DNA of 49,322 bases from an uncultured Prevotellaceae bacterium (GTDB lineage Bacteria; Bacteroidota; Bacteroidia; Bacteroidales; Muribaculaceae), in the NCBI GenBank assembly GCA_900320245.1, contig ONRP01000016.1, positions 1 through 49,322 on the forward strand, given 5' to 3'. Numbering within the stretch: the stretch's first letter is position 1; the number at the start of each line of letters is the position of its first letter. The notes below the pieces were generated by a model that saw nothing but the letters and a program-made list of their open reading frames with translations, did not search any database and was not told where the DNA came from. This document shows positions 9,841 to 48,400 of the stretch, piece after piece. The position numbers were made by a program, and so were the translations under genes.

Positions 9841-9927
9841 GGAGAGGTGGGTGAGTGGCTGAAACCAGCAGTTTGCTAAACTGCCGTAGGGGTAACTCTA
9901 CCGCAAGTTCGAATCTTGTCCTCTCCG
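9841..9927 (+). tRNA. tRNA-Ser, anticodon GCU
   Basis: An 87-nt class II tRNA. The acceptor GGAGAGG (9841-9847) pairs with CCTCTCC (9920-9926); the discriminator is G9927. The anticodon stem GCAGT/ACTGC encloses the loop TTGCTAA with anticodon GCT at 9875-9877. The variable arm GTAGGGGTAACTCTAC is followed by the T-loop GTTCGAATC. CCA is not encoded. Its 3' end (9914-9928) is the attL core of the prophage, and the phage carries the same 15 bp at 47351-47365, so integration leaves the tRNA intact. Confidence 0.95.
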
Positions 9928-9928
9928 C
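9914..9928 (+). repeat. attL core (direct repeat with attR)
   Basis: TCTTGTCCTCTCCGC lies inside the T-stem/acceptor end of tRNA-Ser. An identical copy is at 47351-47365. Confidence 0.88.
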
Positions 9929-10003: not shown

Positions 10004-10042
10004 ACCTTTTGCATTCCTGGATTGCCCAAGAATGTAAAAAAA

Positions 10043-11200
10043 ATGTGTCCCAGAACCAAAAAGTTAAATTCTCTTGGCGAGGTGTTGCATTACACCCCAC
10101 CCAAACTCCACACTGGTTTAAAATGGTATGTTGACTTCTATGCGTATGACCCGGCCGACGGGTCGATGCGTCGCAAGAAGTATCACGTTGACAATGCCGG
10201 CAAGGTAACGGAACGTCGCAGACGGGCTGCAGAACTCATTGAGTCGTTGACCCGGCTGCTGCGCTCTGGTTGGTCGCCCTGGGTGAACTCTGATTCAAGT
10301 CGAGCCTACATCTTGTTTGAGGAGGCCGTCAATAAGTATGAGGCTCACATCGAGCGCATGCCGGTGTATCATACCCGCAAGTCCTATTCTTCTAGGCTGC
10401 ACATCTTGCTGGAGTACAACGCCAGCCGACTGTTGCCCATCAGGTATGTCTATCAGTTCGACACCGCCTTTGTCAGCGACTTCCTGGATTACGTGTATCT
10501 TGACCGGGAAGTGACCGCACGGACCCGCAACAATTACCGCCAATGGGCGTGTTCCTTGGCCGAGTTCTTCATTGAAAAGCAGTACCTGGTCGCCAATCCG
10601 GTGACCAAGATAAAAGAACTCGCCGAGTCAGGGAAGAAGCGCCAACCGTTGACGGCTGCGATGCTCCGTCAACTCGAGGAGTGTATCAAGCCAAAAGACC
10701 CATGGTTCTACCTGGCTTGCATGATGGAATACTACACCTTCATACGCCCAACAGAACTGAGCCATGTGAAGGTCGGTGACATCAGCGTGAAGGAGCAGAG
10801 CGTCTTCATCAGCGCCGATCACTCGAAAAATAAGCATGACGGCAAGGTCGGTTTGAACACCAGGATCATCGAGTTGATGATAGACCTTGGCGTGTTCCAA
10901 TACCCGAGCGGGTTCTACCTTTTCGGCCCTAGGGTGTCTCACCCCGCCGAAACAAGAAGCGACGGCGAGATGTTCCGCCGTCGCTGGAATATATTGGTCC
11001 GGAAAGGATTGGGTTGGGCCGATTGTTATCAGTTCTACTCTCTCAAGGATAGCGGGCTGCGTGACCTGGCCAATGCTGAGGGCATTGTCATCGCCAGAGA
11101 CCAGGCCCGGCATAGCGATGTGGCCACCACGAACAAGTATCTGCAGGGTCGTGATGCCCCGGTTCACGAAGAGACCAAGCGCTTCAAGGGCGGCCTATGA
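10043..11200 (+). CDS. int: Tyrosine recombinase / phage integrase
   Basis: A 385-residue integrase from the ATG at 10043; an in-frame TTG at 10022 is an alternative start. An N-terminal arm-binding part precedes a SAM-like core-binding domain (about residues 85-190) and the catalytic domain. Catalytic box I arginine is in TFIRPTEL (about residue 235). The box III H/R region is ARHSDVATTNKYL, with the histidine near 356 and the nucleophilic tyrosine near 366. Box II, normally HxxR, appears as YSLKDSGLRDL near 333, a divergent form seen in several Bacteroidetes integrases. It lies next to attL in tRNA-Ser, so it catalyses the insertion described here. Its stop codon overlaps the end of the convergent tail gene by a few bases, so the late tail operon runs directly against it. 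Confidence 0.92.
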   Translation: MCPRTKKLNSLGEVLHYTPPKLHTGLKWYVDFYAYDPADGSMRRKKYHVDNAGKVTERRRRAAELIESLTRLLRSGWSPWVNSDSSRAYILFEEAVNKYEAHIERMPVYHTRKSYSSRLHILLEYNASRLLPIRYVYQFDTAFVSDFLDYVYLDREVTARTRNNYRQWACSLAEFFIEKQYLVANPVTKIKELAESGKKRQPLTAAMLRQLEECIKPKDPWFYLACMMEYYTFIRPTELSHVKVGDISVKEQSVFISADHSKNKHDGKVGLNTRIIELMIDLGVFQYPSGFYLFGPRVSHPAETRSDGEMFRRRWNILVRKGLGWADCYQFYSLKDSGLRDLANAEGIVIARDQARHSDVATTNKYLQGRDAPVHEETKRFKGGL

Positions 11201-23938: not shown

Positions 23939-24462
23939 ACGGCCTCACCTCCTTCCTCGCTCTCGCGCTGCTGGCGGTTCTGCTCCACATGCTGCAGGTA
24001 GGCGTCGTGCAGCCGCTCGGCCTCGTTGATGTAGTGCTTGTTGATGGCACGGCGCTCCTCGGCGATTTCCTTACAGCGGTTGTTGTACTTGGCCTCAGCG
24101 CCGTTCAGGGCGGCATATCTCCGGCCGTCGATGCCGATGAGTTCCACCTGCAGGTTGTTGATTCTCATGGTAAAGTCATCGAGGTCACCCATGCCTGTGG
24201 TGTCGGCATCGATGCTCAAGGCGTGGCGCAGGTTGGCACGCTGGTCACGCAGGCACTCAATCTGCGTCTTGAGGTTCAGCCGTCGCAGTTCAAAATCCTC
24301 CTTGATGCGGATGCGCTCCATGTTGTAGGCGTTCTTCAGCACCTTGAAGCGCTCGTTGAGTTCCTGGAGGTCGTCCTCCTTGGCTTGGCGCAGGCGGCGC
24401 AGGTCGGCGGCATACTTGGCCTCTACCTGCTGGGCACGGCGTTGGCGGGCGGTGTCAATCAT
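23935..24462 (-). CDS. Coiled-coil protein of SD-preceded cassette
   Basis: A 175-residue protein predicted to be almost wholly coiled coil (ADLRRLRQAKEDDLQELNER, EDFELRRLNLKTQIECLRDQ, and EERRAINKHYINEAERLHDA). A short break around SIDADTTGMGDLDDFTMR separates the two halves, suggesting a helical hairpin. No membrane segment. GGAGG sits 9 bp before the ATG at 24462, within the end of the preceding membrane-protein gene, and the genes overlap by 4 bp. Pairing with a small two-helix membrane protein upstream suggests a membrane-associated complex; that is inference. Confidence 0.65.
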   Translation of the reverse strand: MIDTARQRRAQQVEAKYAADLRRLRQAKEDDLQELNERFKVLKNAYNMERIRIKEDFELRRLNLKTQIECLRDQRANLRHALSIDADTTGMGDLDDFTMRINNLQVELIGIDGRRYAALNGAEAKYNNRCKEIAEERRAINKHYINEAERLHDAYLQHVEQNRQQRESEEGGEAV

Positions 24463-24713
24463 AACTGGTCACCTCCTTTCGCGATATCGATGGCGGACAT
24501 GATGGCAAAGTGGCCCACCCAGGCGACCGTTGCAAAAACGGCAACAGTCCCATGCTGCCCCGTGATGAGCCAGGACAAGAGGCTCACCAGGGCGACAGCC
24601 GCCAGCAGCGTGTTGACTTTGACGGTTAAAAACTTCAGCACGATGTGACCCAGTGCTGTGGCCAGGGCTTCATAGCCCTCACTCTCCCGGTTGATTTGAA
24701 TGGTGTTGTTCAT
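24459..24713 (-). CDS. Small membrane protein heading the cassette
   Basis: An 84-residue protein read from the ATG at 24713 (MNNTIQINRESEGYEALATA), with two hydrophobic segments (VNTLLAAVALVSLLSWLI and VAVFATVAWVGHFAIMSAID). A longer reading frame would run through the leader hairpin and is rejected. The ATG lies 1 nt after a 19-bp inverted repeat (24715-24784) and has no GGAGG, unlike the genes after it, so translation may depend on the state of that hairpin. Holin-like size and topology are possible, but a holin-like gene already lies at 14143-14433. Function unknown. Confidence 0.6.
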   Translation of the reverse strand: MNNTIQINRESEGYEALATALGHIVLKFLTVKVNTLLAAVALVSLLSWLITGQHGTVAVFATVAWVGHFAIMSAIDIAKGGDQL

Positions 24714-24714
24714 A

Positions 24715-24784
24715 ACACAGTTGATTACAGCAATAGGCAGTATATAAAAACGGCTGCCTGTTCCGTTGCTGTAATCAACTGTGT
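24715..24784 (-). promoter_or_regulatory. Leader hairpin with 19-bp perfect inverted repeat adjoining the start codon
   Basis: ACACAGTTGATTACAGCAA and its exact complement occupy 24766-24784 and 24715-24733. A nested AGGCAG/CTGCCT stem lies at 24735-24759. A third copy of the TGCTGTAATCAAC segment is upstream at 24910-24922, near the expected transcript start. The middle segment could therefore pair with either flank, as in attenuators. Confidence 0.65.
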
Positions 24785-25116
24785 CATCTCCGGAGAGCGC
24801 CAACTATGATTCGGAAAGGCAGCCTTCTATCGGCTATATTTCGGGCATAAAAATAGCCCGAAGCAATTTCGAGCGGATAACCGACGCTCAGGCGGCGATG
24901 ACAAACATCGTTGATTACAGCACCGCAAAATTAAGTTCTAATTTTGAACTGACAAAATTTAGAGCCAAAAAACGCCAGAAAATTACCGAAATATGTTTTA
25001 CAACATAAAAATCGGCAGAAAATTCCGTGAAATTCCGCCGATTTTCCGCGAGTTTCCCGCGAAAACCGCTTTAACTGGCTTCTGGTGGCAAAAAAACTTA
25101 GCATTTCTTTCTTTGC
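24785..25116 (-). promoter_or_regulatory. Long leader and promoter region of the small-gene cassette
   Basis: TAATTTTG (minus strand 24933-24926) matches the TAnnTTTG -7 element. The transcript start predicted from it falls at about 24920, giving a leader of about 200 nt. Inside it are a CGGGC-(N)-GCCCG hairpin at about 24842-24858 and a GGCAGCC segment near 24818. AAATCGGC/GCCGATTT pairs at about 25010-25046. No gene is evident here. Confidence 0.45.
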
Positions 25117-25947: not shown

Positions 25948-26187
25948 CTACAGTTGCTTGTAGATGTTGATGTAGTCAATCGACGTGCAGCCAGACAGCC
26001 GCTCTGCCAGCACTGATGCCTCGGTGAAGTTGTGGGCTTCGACCTCGAAGCGCTCAACGTCGCCGTCAAGAGAGGTCACCTCAATGAGAAAGGTATTGAG
26101 CGCGTGAGAGCGGCGACCTTTAAAAGCGCTGGAGCCAGCCGCGTTGGCGGGCGAACAAAGGAATGATGTGTTGATAGGATGTGTCAT
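25948..26187 (-). CDS. Small hypothetical phage protein
   Basis: A 79-residue protein (MTHPINTSFLCSPANAAGSS), with a core of LNTFLIEVTSLDGDVERFEV and a C-terminal helix ending INIYKQL. The fold suggests a small alpha/beta protein; no family was recognised. Its upstream region (26188-26375) is related to that of the PRTase-like gene (27539-27722): both share TTGATYAC about 32 bp before the ATG and the same folded element, so the two genes are probably controlled alike. It ends at its own terminator. Confidence 0.6.
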   Translation of the reverse strand: MTHPINTSFLCSPANAAGSSAFKGRRSHALNTFLIEVTSLDGDVERFEVEAHNFTEASVLAERLSGCTSIDYINIYKQL

Positions 26188-26789
26188 AATAAAAAATGAT
26201 TAAATGGTGAATAAAAGCATTGATCACGTTGTCGCGTTTGACCTTTGCCGCCAATCAAGAGCCGCTCAACCAGCAAGGTTTATGGCCCTGAATACTACCC
26301 GCACGGGTGGAGATTCTGAGCCATAACGAAGCCTGACCTTGCAGCCCATGGAGCGGCACTACCTTTGCGGCGAAAGTCAGCAGCGACAATCAATGCCCAC
26401 CATCTAATCATTTCATGGCACCAGACTATCGTCATCATTCCACGCCCGCCAAGCGAAGGCACCAGCCTACATATAACCCCGCAAAGCGGAAGCAGCCGGA
26501 ACGGCTGCCGTGGCGATGTCGATGATGAGCGACGGCAAGCGAAAGGAGGCGAAGCGGTGAGACCTGGAGCCCAAGCAGAACAGGACACATGCGGCCGAGT
26601 GCAACGAGAGTGACGGGGTGGTACGGAGGGGAAGGAACGGCGAGCCAGCGAGGGAAGAGACTGAGCAACGTGCCACCCGGTCACGTGCCCCACGTGCCCG
26701 TCGTGAGGCATGATAGGCTCGAGGTTGTGAGCGAAGCCGACAAGCGCAGCCATCGCCAACAGCGACATCGGGGCGTGGGGTTGGGCCCC
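26188..26789. other. GC-rich gene-free region 1, candidate long structured RNA
   Basis: About 600 bp without a credible gene. It begins with a folded element (26273-26342) and contains TACCTTTGCGG at 26360-26370, which resembles a plus-strand -7 element. Hairpins include GCAGCCG/CGGCTGC (26492-26508) and CCGC/GCGG (26479-26488). AGGCGAAGCGG at 26547-26557 recurs at a similar offset in region 2 (27850-27860). It ends at the hairpin at 26796-26821. The open frames here are GC-driven and share no protein family. Confidence 0.5.
26273..26342 (+). ncRNA. Structured element, copy 1
   Basis: Nested stems: GCAAGG/CCTTGC (26273-26278, 26337-26342), TATGGC/GCCATA (26281-26286, 26320-26325), GAAT/ATTC (26290-26293, 26313-26316) and CTACCC/GGGTGG (26295-26300, 26305-26310) with a GCAC loop. 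Copy 2 at 27613-27686 has the same shape, different stem bases and identical unpaired A, AG and TGA bases. The apical U-G pair is allowed only on the plus strand, so I give plus sense. Confidence 0.6.
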
Positions 26790-26821
26790 AAAAAAATGAG
26801 CGGCTCTCTCGAGCGGCTCAT
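26790..26821 (-). terminator. Intrinsic terminator with GAGA loop
   Basis: On the minus strand ATGAGC-C-GCTC pairs with GAGC-C-GCTCAT around a GAGA loop, followed by TTTTTT. The operator-bearing promoter at 26866-26903 lies only about 50 bp upstream, so transcription from it would yield an RNA of about 70 nt unless read through. The core GCCGCTCGNGAGAGCCGC recurs at 40950-40973. Confidence 0.75.
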
Positions 26822-26865
26822 CTTCACAATTAACTTTATTAAATTGTACAGAATTTTCTAATCGC

Positions 26866-26962: not shown

Positions 26963-27538
26963 TCAATCATTCTTGCTGTCTCCCGTCTGGGTGACGGCAA
27001 GGAAGATGCCGGCTACCACGATAGCGCCCATGCTCTCGAGGTACTCAACCATATTGGCAAAACTCTTGCCTTTGGTGATGACGTCATCGAAGATGACAAC
27101 TTTGCGACCGTTGAAGAATTTGGCGTCGAATTTGAGGACCGACACCTTGGAGATAGACTTGCACACCTTGTGCTCATGGAGTGCCAGCCGCTCACCTTCA
27201 ACCTTGATATGCTTGTAGGCGTTAGCCATCTTGGTCGCCTTGCATACTTCACCCGAGAATTGCTCGTAGCGCATGCAGGTTTTCTGCTGGGTGCTTGCAG
27301 GGATGCAGACCAGGGTAAGGTCTTCGAGTCCGGGCAGGTTCTCGTCGAGCGTCTCGCTGACCCATTGAGCGACCTCGCTAGAGGTGGAGACTTCGCCGTC
27401 CTTGAATTTCCATACCTTCTTACGGATGCCCCAGGCTTGTCCTGTTGCCTGGACCGAGGTAGGGATGTAAGTGTAACGTGCTGCCATGAAGATGTTGTCG
27501 TTGTTAACGAAAGCCGAAGTGTTGTTAATGCGTACCAT
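26963..27538 (-). CDS. Phosphoribosyltransferase-like protein
   Basis: A 191-residue protein with the 13-residue PRPP-binding motif of type I phosphoribosyltransferases, VVIFDDVITKGKS (about residues 147-159). It is preceded by a conserved central strand region (LEDLTLVCIPASTQQKTCMR) and followed by LESMGAIVVAGIFLAVTQTG. The two adjacent acidic residues of the motif (DD) and the TKGKS loop are intact, so PRPP binding is plausible. The base substrate cannot be told; ComF-like, adenine/orotate and nucleotide-salvage roles are all open. It is a single gene with its own terminator, flanked on both sides by long non-coding regions, and its upstream region shares the folded element with the gene at 25948-26187. 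A role in nucleotide economy during infection is inference. Confidence 0.75.
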   Translation of the reverse strand: MVRINNTSAFVNNDNIFMAARYTYIPTSVQATGQAWGIRKKVWKFKDGEVSTSSEVAQWVSETLDENLPGLEDLTLVCIPASTQQKTCMRYEQFSGEVCKATKMANAYKHIKVEGERLALHEHKVCKSISKVSVLKFDAKFFNGRKVVIFDDVITKGKSFANMVEYLESMGAIVVAGIFLAVTQTGDSKND

Positions 27539-28179
27539 AATAACAGTGATTTTAGTGAGTTAATAATTCATTGATTACACTGCTTTGTGGCGAGCGATGT
27601 TAGTGACTTCCAGCAAGGGTTGCCCGGATAATTACTACCCTGCAGGGGGTGGAGAATTGTCTGAGGCGACTCGACATGGCCCTTGCCTGTCACGTGTCGC
27701 CGCAACTTTGCGGTGAAATCAAGAATTACTCACTGAATCACTTTGGTGCGTATGGGTCACACGAGCGCCGACAACGGCACCCGATTACCAGGCAGCGACA
27801 GCCCCACCCGGCACAGGCAAGAGCCGCATCCGTCCGTGATGAAATTCATAGGCGAAGCGGCCAAGCCCAACAGGTCAGAGCCGACAGAACCAGCCGACCG
27901 AAGCCCATGGTCCGCCTCCCACAGGAGGAAACCGCGCCACGGCGATGAACGGGTGCTACCGCCTGATGGGCGACCATGTAAGGATAGCATGTAAGGTTGA
28001 GGGGTGAGCGCGAGAGGGGAACAAGTCCCAAGGTGCCCGTCCTCAGATGCCAAATCGGCGGCAGCATCATCACCGCCAAAGGCTGTCCACCAATCTCCGA
28101 GAGCGAGGGCCGGTAGTAGCCGAAACATTCAAGTTGTTGAAGGAATGGAAAGAACTGATTGGCGCCCCCGGGGGACAAC
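27539..28179. other. GC-rich gene-free region 2, candidate long structured RNA
   Basis: About 640 bp without a credible gene, paralogous to region 1 by its folded element and by AGGCGAAGCGG at 27850-27860. It also holds CCGCA/TGCGG (27700-27714) and GGCGCCCCCGGGGG-type GC runs (about 28161-28175). The short open frames in it have no relatives that I can recognise and differ from those of region 1, as expected if neither is coding. Confidence 0.5.
27613..27686 (+). ncRNA. Structured element, copy 2
   Basis: Stems: GCAAGG/CCTTGC (27613-27618, 27681-27686), GTTGCC/GGCGAC (27619-27624, 27665-27670), GATAATT/AATTGTC (27627-27633, 27655-27661) and CTACCC/GGGTGG (27635-27640, 27647-27652). The loop bases A (27634), AG (27653-27654) and TGA (27662-27664) equal those of copy 1. 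Three G-U pairs here would be A-C on the minus strand. Confidence 0.6.
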
Positions 28180-28210
28180 AAAATGGCGCGACCATCACTG
28201 GCAGCGCCAT
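28180..28210 (-). terminator. Intrinsic terminator after terminase
   Basis: ATGGCGC (28210-28204, minus strand) pairs with GCGCCAT (28189-28183), with an inner CCA-GTGA-TGG and a TTTT tail. It also forms the right end of non-coding region 2. Confidence 0.7.
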
Positions 28211-28236
28211 CCGCACGTTTAACTAATAACTAAATC

Positions 28237-28244
28237 CAAATTTA
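28237..28244 (-). promoter_or_regulatory. Promoter-like -7 element downstream of terminase
   Basis: TAAATTTG on the minus strand, between the terminase stop and the terminator at 28180-28210. If active it would make only an RNA of about 50 nt before the hairpin. Confidence 0.35.
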
Positions 28245-28255
28245 TTATGAACGCA

Positions 28256-29881
28256 TCACATCGATGATGTCACAGCCATTCTGAAAGCCACTTTCGGGAA
28301 GCGTTCACAGCCTATGCACAGCGTGTCGAAGGCGTCGCTGCCGTCGGTGCGTGCTTCCAGTTTATCTTCTTCGGTCTCGGCAAGTTTCTCGCCTCGTTTA
28401 TCTTTGCCGCCGTTATAGACGCCGGCTGTCTGGATCGAGACCAGCAGGTCCTCGTTGTTCTCCCGGTTGATCATCACCTTGAGGCGAGACTTGCCAGCGA
28501 GCATTCGGTTGATGAGCAACTGTTTCTCGATGTGGCGCATCGGCTTGCCGATGTACACATCATTGACACGCCAGCCACGCGCCTTGAAGGCATTCGTGAT
28601 GACCCACTTGAAGTCCTGGTCATTGACGGCATAGTTGCTGCCAAGGGCCGTGCTGTCATAGTAGAAAACCACCTCTTTGCGCTTGTGGTGTCGATAGTAC
28701 CGGCAGAAGTCATCCACCAACTCAGGCAGTTTTCTCTCGAACTTCACGAAGAACGACTTCACGACCAGCAGTTGGCTGTTCCTGGTCTGCCCTGCCACGA
28801 GCCAGTTGATGTTGCTGTTGTAGTCAAAGGCGATGGCAATAGGCTGGTTGGCATCGGTGTCACTGTCGGCCAGTGAGCACGGTTCCTGTATTTTGTCGAA
28901 GCGGTATTCCAGGTTATCCAGGTAACTGAAGTTAGTCGCACTGTACTTGTTCGACTCCGTCATCGAGTTGTAGAAGCCGTCACGTGCGATGCCGATACGT
29001 TTGCACAACACCGATGTCTGGAATGTCAACGGCGGCAGGTCACGCTTCAGTTGGTTGATGAAAGCCTCCCCCAGCACCTGCATGTTGTAGATTGTGCTGG
29101 CCTCCCGGTAGTAGGTGGCCACCGAGCGCATCCGGCACAGGTCACGGTGGAGCGTGCGGATCTTGCTTTGGATTGACCTAGACGGTTCCTTGCCTGCCGC
29201 CACGAGGTCACGGATGTGTGCCTCGTATCGCCAAATCTCATAGACCGTGCCCTGGATCAGGGTGATGAGTTCCTTGTCGCACTTCTTTTCGTAGTTCAGG
29301 AACCACGAGCCCTTCTTTGTCACGGGCATATCGCTCGTGATGAGCATCCCATGGTGGAAGTAGTGCTTACCGAAGTACTGGCGGTTACCACGGTTGGCGG
29401 GCAAGGTCTCATCCTTGAGTTGTTCGAAGTCGATGAACTTCGCCTCATCGATGTCCAGGGCATCATAGGACTGCGAGTTTGACGTGCCGCTACGATCCTG
29501 GGAGATGATGAAACCGATGCTACCGTTGTAGAACGAAAGCACGTTCTCATAGTTCTCCGGCTTGAAGATGGGGTCTGGCCATCCCCAAGCCTTGGGCGGT
29601 TTGATGCCGATGCACCAATGCACGTTGCGCTTGTAGCCCAATTTTTCCCAGTGTGTGAGCATCGACGGCAGCGTGTTGGTCAGCGCACGCTTACAGTTGG
29701 GCGACACGATGCCCGTGATGCTGCCCGGCATGCGCTGCATGTTGCGCAGGTTCCACAGGGCATGGATGACGCCTTTACCAAGGGCACGGCCCGCACAGAG
29801 GACGGTGTCTTTGGCCCCGGTGTAAATCACCTCCATCTGGATGTCATTAAGGTAGAACGGTTGTGCGTCATTCGGATTCAT
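28256..29881 (-). CDS. Terminase large subunit
   Basis: A 541-residue protein, the ATP-driven DNA-packaging motor with a C-terminal nuclease. From the ATG at 29881 (MNPNDAQPFYLNDIQMEVIY), the Walker A-like loop is CAGRALGKGVIHA (about residues 28-40), the Walker B is YDALDIDEAKFID (about 139-151), and QDRSGTSNSQSYDAL precedes it. The C-terminal RNase H-like nuclease has IAFDYNSNINWLV, VVFYYDSTALG and the final acidic GSDAFDTLCIGCERF. A longer frame would begin far inside the small-subunit gene and is rejected; the chosen start overlaps that gene by 14 bp. The protein would bind the portal during head filling. Confidence 0.88.
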   Translation of the reverse strand: MNPNDAQPFYLNDIQMEVIYTGAKDTVLCAGRALGKGVIHALWNLRNMQRMPGSITGIVSPNCKRALTNTLPSMLTHWEKLGYKRNVHWCIGIKPPKAWGWPDPIFKPENYENVLSFYNGSIGFIISQDRSGTSNSQSYDALDIDEAKFIDFEQLKDETLPANRGNRQYFGKHYFHHGMLITSDMPVTKKGSWFLNYEKKCDKELITLIQGTVYEIWRYEAHIRDLVAAGKEPSRSIQSKIRTLHRDLCRMRSVATYYREASTIYNMQVLGEAFINQLKRDLPPLTFQTSVLCKRIGIARDGFYNSMTESNKYSATNFSYLDNLEYRFDKIQEPCSLADSDTDANQPIAIAFDYNSNINWLVAGQTRNSQLLVVKSFFVKFERKLPELVDDFCRYYRHHKRKEVVFYYDSTALGSNYAVNDQDFKWVITNAFKARGWRVNDVYIGKPMRHIEKQLLINRMLAGKSRLKVMINRENNEDLLVSIQTAGVYNGGKDKRGEKLAETEEDKLEARTDGSDAFDTLCIGCERFPKVAFRMAVTSSM

Positions 29882-47740: not shown

Positions 47741-48400
47741 ATGTTTATGACAGGACAGAACATCAACATAATGAATTCGTGCGCAACGCTGACCACAGCA
47801 TATTCACGGATCAGATCGATGGTCATCAGGGGGATCGTTCAGCGAGTCGGTCGCGGAGTGTATGAGCGCACCGGCAAATCCGCATTCGCCTTTGAAACGA
47901 GTGAATCCATGAGGGCAATAGCCAGCAGCATTACAAAAGATTTTCCTTACATCAATTATTGTGTATGGGATCTGTCACCCATCAACACCCTGGCGCAGCA
48001 CCTCATCAATTTCAATGTCACCATCGTAGATGTTGACCGTGAAGCCGTAGAGGCAGTATATCAGCGTTTGCGAGACATTCACGAGAAGGTGCTGACCACC
48101 AAAAGGATGTTTGACGGCCTTGCAGACTATAACGGTTTCATCCTGGTGAGAAGGCTTGTGACCGATGCGCCTTTAATGAAAAGAGACGGCATCTCTTTAC
48201 CGACACTGGAGAAATTCCTGGTGGACATTGCATTGGATAAAGAGTTCTTCATTTTCCAGGGATATGAAATCGAGCACATCTTCTCTAACGCAAATACGAT
48301 CTATGCCATGAACAGGAACAGGCTGTTGCGTTATGCCGGCAGGAAGAACCACCGTGATGAAATCGAGCGATTATTAATCAATAATTCGTCAATAAACTGA
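47741..48400 (+). CDS. AbiEi-like antitoxin of an AbiE (type IV) toxin-antitoxin system
   Basis: A 219-residue protein with an N-terminal winged-HTH stretch (TTAYSRIRSMVIRGIVQRVG, then GRGVYERTGKSAFAFE), as in AbiEi antitoxins, which bind DNA upstream of their own operon. The remainder is the mixed alpha/beta antitoxin body (INYCVWDLSPINTLAQHLIN). It is followed by a nucleotidyltransferase of the AbiEii type, the standard pair. The protein also could be called a DUF6577-like member. A start two codons in is possible. AbiE systems protect against phages by abortive infection. The gene is outside the prophage, in host DNA, and is preceded by a 13-bp inverted repeat. Confidence 0.72.
   Translation: MFMTGQNINIMNSCATLTTAYSRIRSMVIRGIVQRVGRGVYERTGKSAFAFETSESMRAIASSITKDFPYINYCVWDLSPINTLAQHLINFNVTIVDVDREAVEAVYQRLRDIHEKVLTTKRMFDGLADYNGFILVRRLVTDAPLMKRDGISLPTLEKFLVDIALDKEFFIFQGYEIEHIFSNANTIYAMNRNRLLRYAGRKNHRDEIERLLINNSSIN

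Follow-up and report, generated by a model that had tools for sequence, protein, structure and literature searches.

A conserved foldback of Bacteroidota phages and plasmids as a probable single-strand promoter of the adjacent opposite-strand gene

Two folded elements in a prophage of an uncultured Prevotellaceae bacterium are members of a large Bacteroidota family, in which the strand bearing the element, here the plus strand, is the functional single strand. On the computed fold, its strand, the promoter motif with its spacing and exposed A, the GNA loops, and the position and kinds of the adjacent genes, we regard the element as a likely fold-back (single-strand) promoter of the adjacent gene on the opposite strand. 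In the following, the window is the whole stretch of DNA that was analysed, contig ONRP01000016.1 with its 49,322 nucleotides.

Results

Two paralogous foldbacks within a tailed prophage

The initial annotation had proposed two paralogous folded elements, the first at 26273-26342 on the plus strand. The sequence bears this out and places the second foldback at 27613-27686 on the same strand. The core of copy 1 consists of a base stem (GCAAGG/CCTTGC), a middle stem, an inner stem and an apical stem (CTACCC/GGGTGG). The compensatory change of the middle stem, which pairs as TATGGC/GCCATA in copy 1 and as GTTGCC/GGCGAC in copy 2, proved to be real, and a further one (T-A to G-C) was read from the sequence at the pair adjoining GCAAGG. 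Also the unpaired A, AG and TGA of copy 1 are, as had been claimed, identical in copy 2. The covariance model R1, which describes the core and whose seed contains both copies, scored 56.8 bits on copy 1 and 56.0 bits on copy 2.

Folded as RNA and compared with dinucleotide shuffles, copy 1 reached a z of -3.1, with 1 of 200 shuffles equally good, and copy 2 a z of -3.6, with 0 of 200 equally good. Single-strand DNA folds demonstrated that the foldbacks extend beyond the bounds given at first: with its outer arms, the full foldback of copy 1 occupies 26229-26389 (z -4.9) and that of copy 2 27565-27727 (z -4.7), both on the plus strand. Within the former, the 5′ arm is the proposed template and the 3′ arm the proposed non-template strand. 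The minus strand of copy 1 folds on par with the plus strand (z -5.1) and that of copy 2 more weakly than its plus strand (z -2.4). Folding energy alone thus does not settle the choice of strand.

Both copies are located in a tailed prophage with genes for an integrase, a tape measure protein, a Clp-type head protease, an amidase and a primase. A further prophage marker, the terminase large subunit gene (28286-29869, minus strand), encodes a protein with 56% identity to a terminase on contig C44 of the same genome; the C44 terminase matches phrog_2 (E 1e-11), and a PHROG search with the window protein itself gave no match. Each copy stands 5′ of a minus-strand gene that is proposed to be read from it, copy 1 of an ORF of 79 amino acids (25948-26187) and copy 2 of a phosphoribosyltransferase-like gene of 191 amino acids (26963-27538), the latter named from weak Pfam and PHROG matches. 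Relatives of the 79-aa ORF stand 5′ of the hairpin also in related phages and in the C44 prophage. Phosphoribosyltransferase-like relatives adjoin the hairpin in other phages, and one is found on the Parabacteroides plasmid pMMCAT. The same genome holds two more copies, on contigs C44 (L198:18086-18156) and C47 (L200:18606-18677). The C44 copy occupies the equivalent position in another prophage that is related to this one; it adjoins the terminase gene and precedes a relative of the 79-aa ORF (33% identity, E 1.6e-13) by 101 nt.

Several other features of the window were recorded. A tRNA-Ser gene (9841-9928) lies next to the phage integrase gene (10022-11200) and possibly marks an attachment end of the prophage. 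Near a 114-aa ORF (24459-24803), two inverted repeats (24712-24787 and 24761-24928) have arms of 22 and 24 nt that are 95% and 83% complementary. A DUF6577 protein with a weak, below-cutoff match to an AbiEi antitoxin is encoded at 47741-48400, toward the far end of the window.

The elements belong to a large Bacteroidota family

At gathering score, Rfam 15 identified one tRNA and nothing else in the whole window, and at E values up to 5 the 241 nt around each copy gave no match; the family is absent from the Rfam models and from the literature searched. R1 matched 39 of 101 genomes from the genus, 56 of 198 from the family and 17 of 296 from the phylum (the own genome included), with up to seven matches in one genome. 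Such a patchy spread with several matches per genome fits mobile elements. A degenerate sequence pattern matched viral contigs in 27 stretches and genome contigs in at least 118, some of these matches being due to chance and lacking the fold. Among the matches listed, 56 of 80 carried a Bacteroidota label. Genomes labelled as other phyla gave R1 matches in 2 of 18 cases and none in the remaining 16; the two are metagenome bins that had been picked because the hairpin had already been seen in them, one of them being part of the R1 seed, and they represent either contamination or transfer, which are indistinguishable here.

To 20 stretches from the genus and the family, labels were assigned that require at least three similar reference proteins, resulting in 8 phage-like, 2 conjugative-element-like and 10 undecided stretches. 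A blastn search of annotated phages yielded one record matching copy 1 (E < 1e-5). This record was rejected as a close phage relative, as by eye it contains ParA-like and SSB-like genes and no phage structural ones.

At least 107 pattern matches passed the subsequent filter, of which 88 were distinct. As GCAAGG, ACTACCC and GTGGAGA were part of the search pattern and CCTT[G/T] part of the filter, their invariance in the resulting alignment (A1) is uninformative. Four non-members (L063, L071, L085 and L106) were dropped before counting gene-facing boxes and recognised neighbours. For a set of 58 sites, L047, L054, L099 and L101, sites with short flanks and sites with flanks more than 85% alike were removed as well. 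A second set of 36 sites was derived from 57 model matches by removing one match at an edge and then keeping distinct sites with flanks.

The fold is conserved on the plus strand

The initial annotation had taken changed stems with preserved loops as the signature of a selected RNA, to be checked by covariation in relatives. Among 54 distinct model-found sequences, 14 of 18 pairs were doubly changed, and the observed level of covariation was reached by 0 of 500 shuffles, in an alignment (A2) that was fitted to R1 and thus favours R1 pairs. The outer arms, which lay outside both the search pattern and the R1 model, also pair within each site: their score was 39.1 in the 58-site set as compared to 20.0 when the arms were re-dealt between sites (maximum 21.9), and 46.3 versus 21.6 (maximum 23.7) in the 36 model-found sites. 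The bias of G-U pairs toward the plus strand, which had been read from the two copies, holds across the family, with 83 G.T versus 39 A.C (p 4e-5) in the 58 sites and 64 versus 33 (p 0.001) in the 36 sites, p values for which the cells are not independent. The plus strand is therefore the functional single strand.

This orientation also bears on a cis-regulatory 5′ leader RNA of an anti-defence mRNA, which would be transcribed from the minus strand by a promoter further upstream. The frequent position of the hairpin, 50-260 nt ahead of recognised minus-strand genes, would suit such a leader. However, the G.T wobbles of the plus strand would become A.C mismatches in a minus-strand fold, 41 of 47 model-found sequences retain the T.G pair in the apical stem, and the TAnnTTTG box on the plus strand described below would be left unexplained. 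We consider a leader RNA very unlikely.

The 3′ arm carries putative Bacteroidota promoter boxes

In Bacteroides, the primary sigma factor recognises a TTTG near -33 and a TAnnTTTG at -7 (PMC7366714). Boxes of this Bacteroidota type are carried by the 3′ arm of the element. CCTTG stands at the end of the base stem's 3′ strand, and in 37 of 58 sites a strict TAnnTTTG follows on the same strand within 45 nt, spaced by 15-24 nt with two cases at 35. Within 30 nt 3′ of the core, 31 of 58 sites have the slightly wider TAnnTTYG on the hairpin strand, as compared to 1, 0, 0 and 1 at four control positions, and 27 of the 36 model-found sites have it within 32 nt (controls 0, 0 and 0). When the 37 of 58 sites with the strict box were folded as DNA, its A was most exposed, with an unpaired probability of 0.77, CCTTG was closed (0.02-0.04), and pairing with the 5′ arm resumed beyond the -7 box. 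In the window, copy 1 has its -33-like TTG at 26339-26341, inside the closed base stem, and the -7-like box TACCTTTG 18 nt past it at 26360-26367, partly in an internal loop. In copy 2, the TTG at 27683-27685 is followed after 17 nt by a degenerate -7-like box, CAACTTTG, at 27703-27710, which differs from the consensus at one base; all four lie on the plus strand.

No strict box was present within 45 nt in 21 of 58 sites. By eye, 10 of these have a near-consensus box, one (L053) is ambiguous and 10 have none; the -7 box is absent in about a fifth of the sites. The ten sites without a box (L066, L068, L089, L114, L117, L127, L131, L135, L136 and L145) keep the core fold; they form one or two subgroups and have different conserved outer flanks. 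Sites without a -7 box, together with the dispersal of copies on mobile elements, would be in line with a protein-binding operator or a recombination site, i.e., an attC-like or REP-like cruciform or folded strand in which the promoter motif is incidental. Box frequency and position, however, far exceed the controls, and one gene orientation and few gene classes predominate among the neighbours, leaving this reading highly improbable. Integron attC sites are characterized by paired core sites at the ends of gene cassettes and by an integron integrase.

An ordinary duplex promoter of the adjacent gene was also considered and rejected. Across 87 sites, no strict TAnnTTTG was present on the gene-facing strand within 60 nt. 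With one base relaxed, the box occurred 31 times facing the gene, scattered in position, versus 88 times on the 3′ side, so that the gene may also have a weak promoter in the duplex.

The tip loop reads C-GNA-G in 32 of 58 sites, with C (13), A (8), T (7) or G (4) as the N. In 23 of 58 sites, the 3′ internal segment has a GNA mini-hairpin of its own, as compared to 3.7 (maximum 11) in mononucleotide shuffles, whereas other triloops in these segments were not enriched (62 versus 55 in shuffles, sd 6.7). GNA triloops form extraordinarily stable DNA mini-hairpins (PMC4686876).

The plus-strand fold, the covariation and the G-U bias suit an RNA as well as single-stranded DNA and would agree with a plus-strand structured RNA, either a small RNA or a piece of a longer antisense transcript, as would the long G+C-rich gaps without clear genes behind both window copies. 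However, the promoter box lies within the 3′ arm, and transcription from it would thus start beyond the core and not before it. In addition, it is GNA and not other triloops that are enriched, and the special stability of GNA loops is not known from RNA; the neighbours are mostly located on the other strand, and there is no Rfam match. The RNA reading is further disfavoured because the opposite-strand gene would be served by a folded template strand and not by a plus-strand RNA. A structured RNA is, accordingly, unlikely. What remains of the initially annotated RNA is a selected, covarying plus-strand fold with flanking genes on the opposite strand; its RNA nature was not upheld.

As a duplex, the boxes would fire away from the gene, so that a plus-strand transcript is also possible. 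The G+C-rich stretches 3′ of both window hairpins (26392-26830 and 27728-28250), which are long and have no convincing gene, could contain a plus-strand RNA driven by the box in its duplex form. Paralogous long non-coding RNAs downstream of the copies were set aside, since blastn between the two regions gave only the core hairpin above chance and since the C44 prophage has no such long gap, its terminase gene starting about 200 nt past the hairpin. In a global alignment, the two downstream regions scored 190 versus 80 in mononucleotide shuffles.

Opposite orientation of most adjacent genes

Annotated plasmids were represented by eight records. The first annotated gene 5′ of the hairpin has the opposite orientation at 15 of 15 of their sites, a tally that left out one weak hit (E 0.08) inside a relaxase gene. 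By crude ORF calling, which kept everything the filter had passed, the nearest ORF on the 5′ side was opposite in 66 of 84 distinct pattern sites and not in the other 18. Where the neighbour was recognised with reference proteins, it was opposite in 61 of 62 cases, the sole exception being a DUF3408 gene; this count is inflated, since it includes near-identical contigs and since opposite-strand ORFs had supplied some of the references, and many sites have neighbours without recognised identity. With the same reference proteins, 20 of 22 recognised neighbours were opposite in the model-found set.

The recognised opposite neighbours comprised ArdA (18), DUF6943 (12), SSB (11), RadC (10), the 79-aa family (5), phosphoribosyltransferases (3), a methylase-helicase (1) and an unnamed protein (1), and Pfam backs the ArdA, RadC and SSB calls for representatives. 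The twelve DUF6943 genes lie behind the hairpins of L047, L103, L203, L234, L235, L238, L239, L244-L247 and L250, seven of which carry a long insertion (109-127 nt) in the core. On NZ_CP072211.1 (62663-63845; L187), a plasmid with transfer genes, the hairpin is accompanied by phosphoribosyltransferase and SLOG genes, with SSB genes some kilobases off. The phosphoribosyltransferase at this site is a relative of the window gene, which suggests that the two may share a role in establishment or anti-defence.

More than one copy may occur per element. On the B. ovatus plasmid NZ_CP041396, one strand bears four hairpins, each of which precedes a gene of the opposite strand, and NZ_CP081918 has two hairpins, ahead of a RadC/JAB gene and of ArdA. 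These arrangements bear on a role as sso/ssi in complementary-strand synthesis, in which the folded promoter would yield a primer RNA and gene expression would be secondary. Copies are present on plasmids and conjugative elements, and Frpo of plasmid F is said, going by a title of Masai and Arai, to have both promoter and priming roles. A single site per replicon would be enough for priming, yet one plasmid has four, and the sites stand ahead of particular opposite-strand genes, including all 15 plasmid sites. We find it quite unlikely that priming is the main role.

Position relative to transfer and phage genes

The transferred strand was inferred solely from the rule that the relaxase gene enters last, with oriT assumed to lie beside mobA. 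By this rule, the hairpin is on the transferred strand in six elements (L186, L192, L193, L215/L216, L249 and L269) and off it in two (L205/L206 and NZ_CP041396). At 11 of 14 sites (13 loci), the tra genes share the strand of the hairpin. The copies of CTnDOT-like elements are located at least 20 kb from the mob genes, outside the classical leading region.

The element is also carried by tailed double-stranded DNA phages, without an obvious single-stranded entry stage. At 22 of 23 phage sites (near-identical contigs included), the structural genes run opposite to the hairpin, and several phage contigs have ArdA behind it. The opposite structural genes and the presence of ArdA indicate that the element is kept in tailed phages.

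Discussion

With the boxes in the 3′ arm and an opposite-strand gene on the 5′ side, the folded plus strand is predicted to build a promoter that reads the neighbouring mRNA. Once single-stranded, the bearing strand would fold into a long imperfect hairpin mimicking a double-stranded promoter. The 3′ arm would act as the non-template strand, with the TTG (-33) in the closed stem and the TAnnTTTG (-7) presenting a bulged A ready for capture by sigma. The 5′ arm would serve as the template, and host RNA polymerase would run off its end to transcribe the opposite-strand gene located 5′ of the hairpin, i.e., the 79-aa gene in the case of copy 1 and the phosphoribosyltransferase-like gene in that of copy 2. 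From the position of the box, transcription at copy 1 is predicted to start near 26245, leaving about 58 nt to the ATG (26187). Polymerase binding, the start site, the timing of expression and the trigger in phages are those that we infer from this arrangement. In conjugative elements, ArdA, SSB and RadC-like proteins would be made once single-stranded DNA enters the recipient, and expression would end when the DNA turns double-stranded. In phages, the promoter would have to be triggered by the extrusion of a cruciform from supercoiled DNA or by a single-stranded intermediate of replication or repair. More broadly, and tentatively, three kinds of mobile elements (conjugative elements, plasmids and tailed double-stranded DNA phages) may share fold-back promoters for anti-restriction and DNA-protection genes, which would be on only while the strand is single-stranded or extruded and would point the opposite way as a duplex; we hold this general claim to be plausible, if somewhat short of probable.

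The proposed promoter resembles a system known from enterobacterial plasmids. Frpo of plasmid F is a folded single strand whose stem rebuilds promoter boxes and which drives genes such as ssb and psiB, with early and transient expression in recipients (PMC9849209). Like Frpo/ssi of F and ColIb-P9, the family described here is a long single-strand hairpin predicted to rebuild promoter boxes, stands ahead of genes of the SSB and anti-restriction type and may occur in more than one copy per element (PMC9849209, PMC11541004), and in both the gene read, or here predicted to be read, lies on the opposite strand on the 5′ side of the hairpin, as at every annotated plasmid site here. In F as well, the sequence ahead of ssb forms a single long hairpin, in which the boxes were not located. 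However, when both copies were compared by blastn with 22 kb of F that include this sequence, one 12-nt match (E 0.44) was obtained, and an R1 covariance search of the F region gave no hits; this homology comparison with Frpo/ssi covered the F sequence. Unlike Frpo/ssi, the family uses TTG and TAnnTTTG boxes of the Bacteroidota type and occurs in Bacteroidota, has a TACTACCC-GNA-GGGTGGAGA tip and often a GNA mini-hairpin at the side, is distant from the mob genes in CTnDOT-like elements and is present in tailed phages. Given a shared logic in the absence of sequence similarity to F, the family appears to be Frpo-like by design and not a member by homology.

Two further comparisons can be drawn. 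The early promoters of phage N4, a double-stranded DNA phage, are hairpins on the template strand with stable small loops; the hairpins are short, and N4 brings its own virion RNA polymerase. The family shares with them the putative hairpin promoter in a double-stranded DNA phage and the stable small loops, and differs by its host sigma-type boxes and by a foldback of about 160 nt. With GNA mini-hairpins of the d(GCGAAGC) type, it has in common GNA triloops with complementary closing bases, at the tip and in the side hairpin; these mini-hairpins, in contrast, are a structural motif and not a regulatory system.

An earlier survey of leading regions set out by BLAST from five known Frpo/ssi together with candidates that boxes of the TTGACA/TATAAT type had pointed to in four islands (PMC11541004), and a later survey used the same five and 13 putative Frpo/ssi (PMC12826799). 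The word stem Bacteroid is absent from the main texts of both (PMC11541004, PMC12826799). Among the papers listed by the literature searches, which covered few subscription papers, we found no single-strand promoter of Bacteroidota, no Frpo in a phage and no phage single-strand promoter with host-type boxes.

If the proposal is true, such a family in the dominant phylum of the gut, unrelated in sequence to the enterobacterial promoters, would show that the single-strand promoter strategy is general, and its signature could be used to search mobile elements of the gut for early anti-defence genes. It also raises the testable question of why tailed phages would have such a promoter. DUF6943, the 79-aa family and the phosphoribosyltransferase-like gene may then be placed among the genes for establishment and anti-defence.
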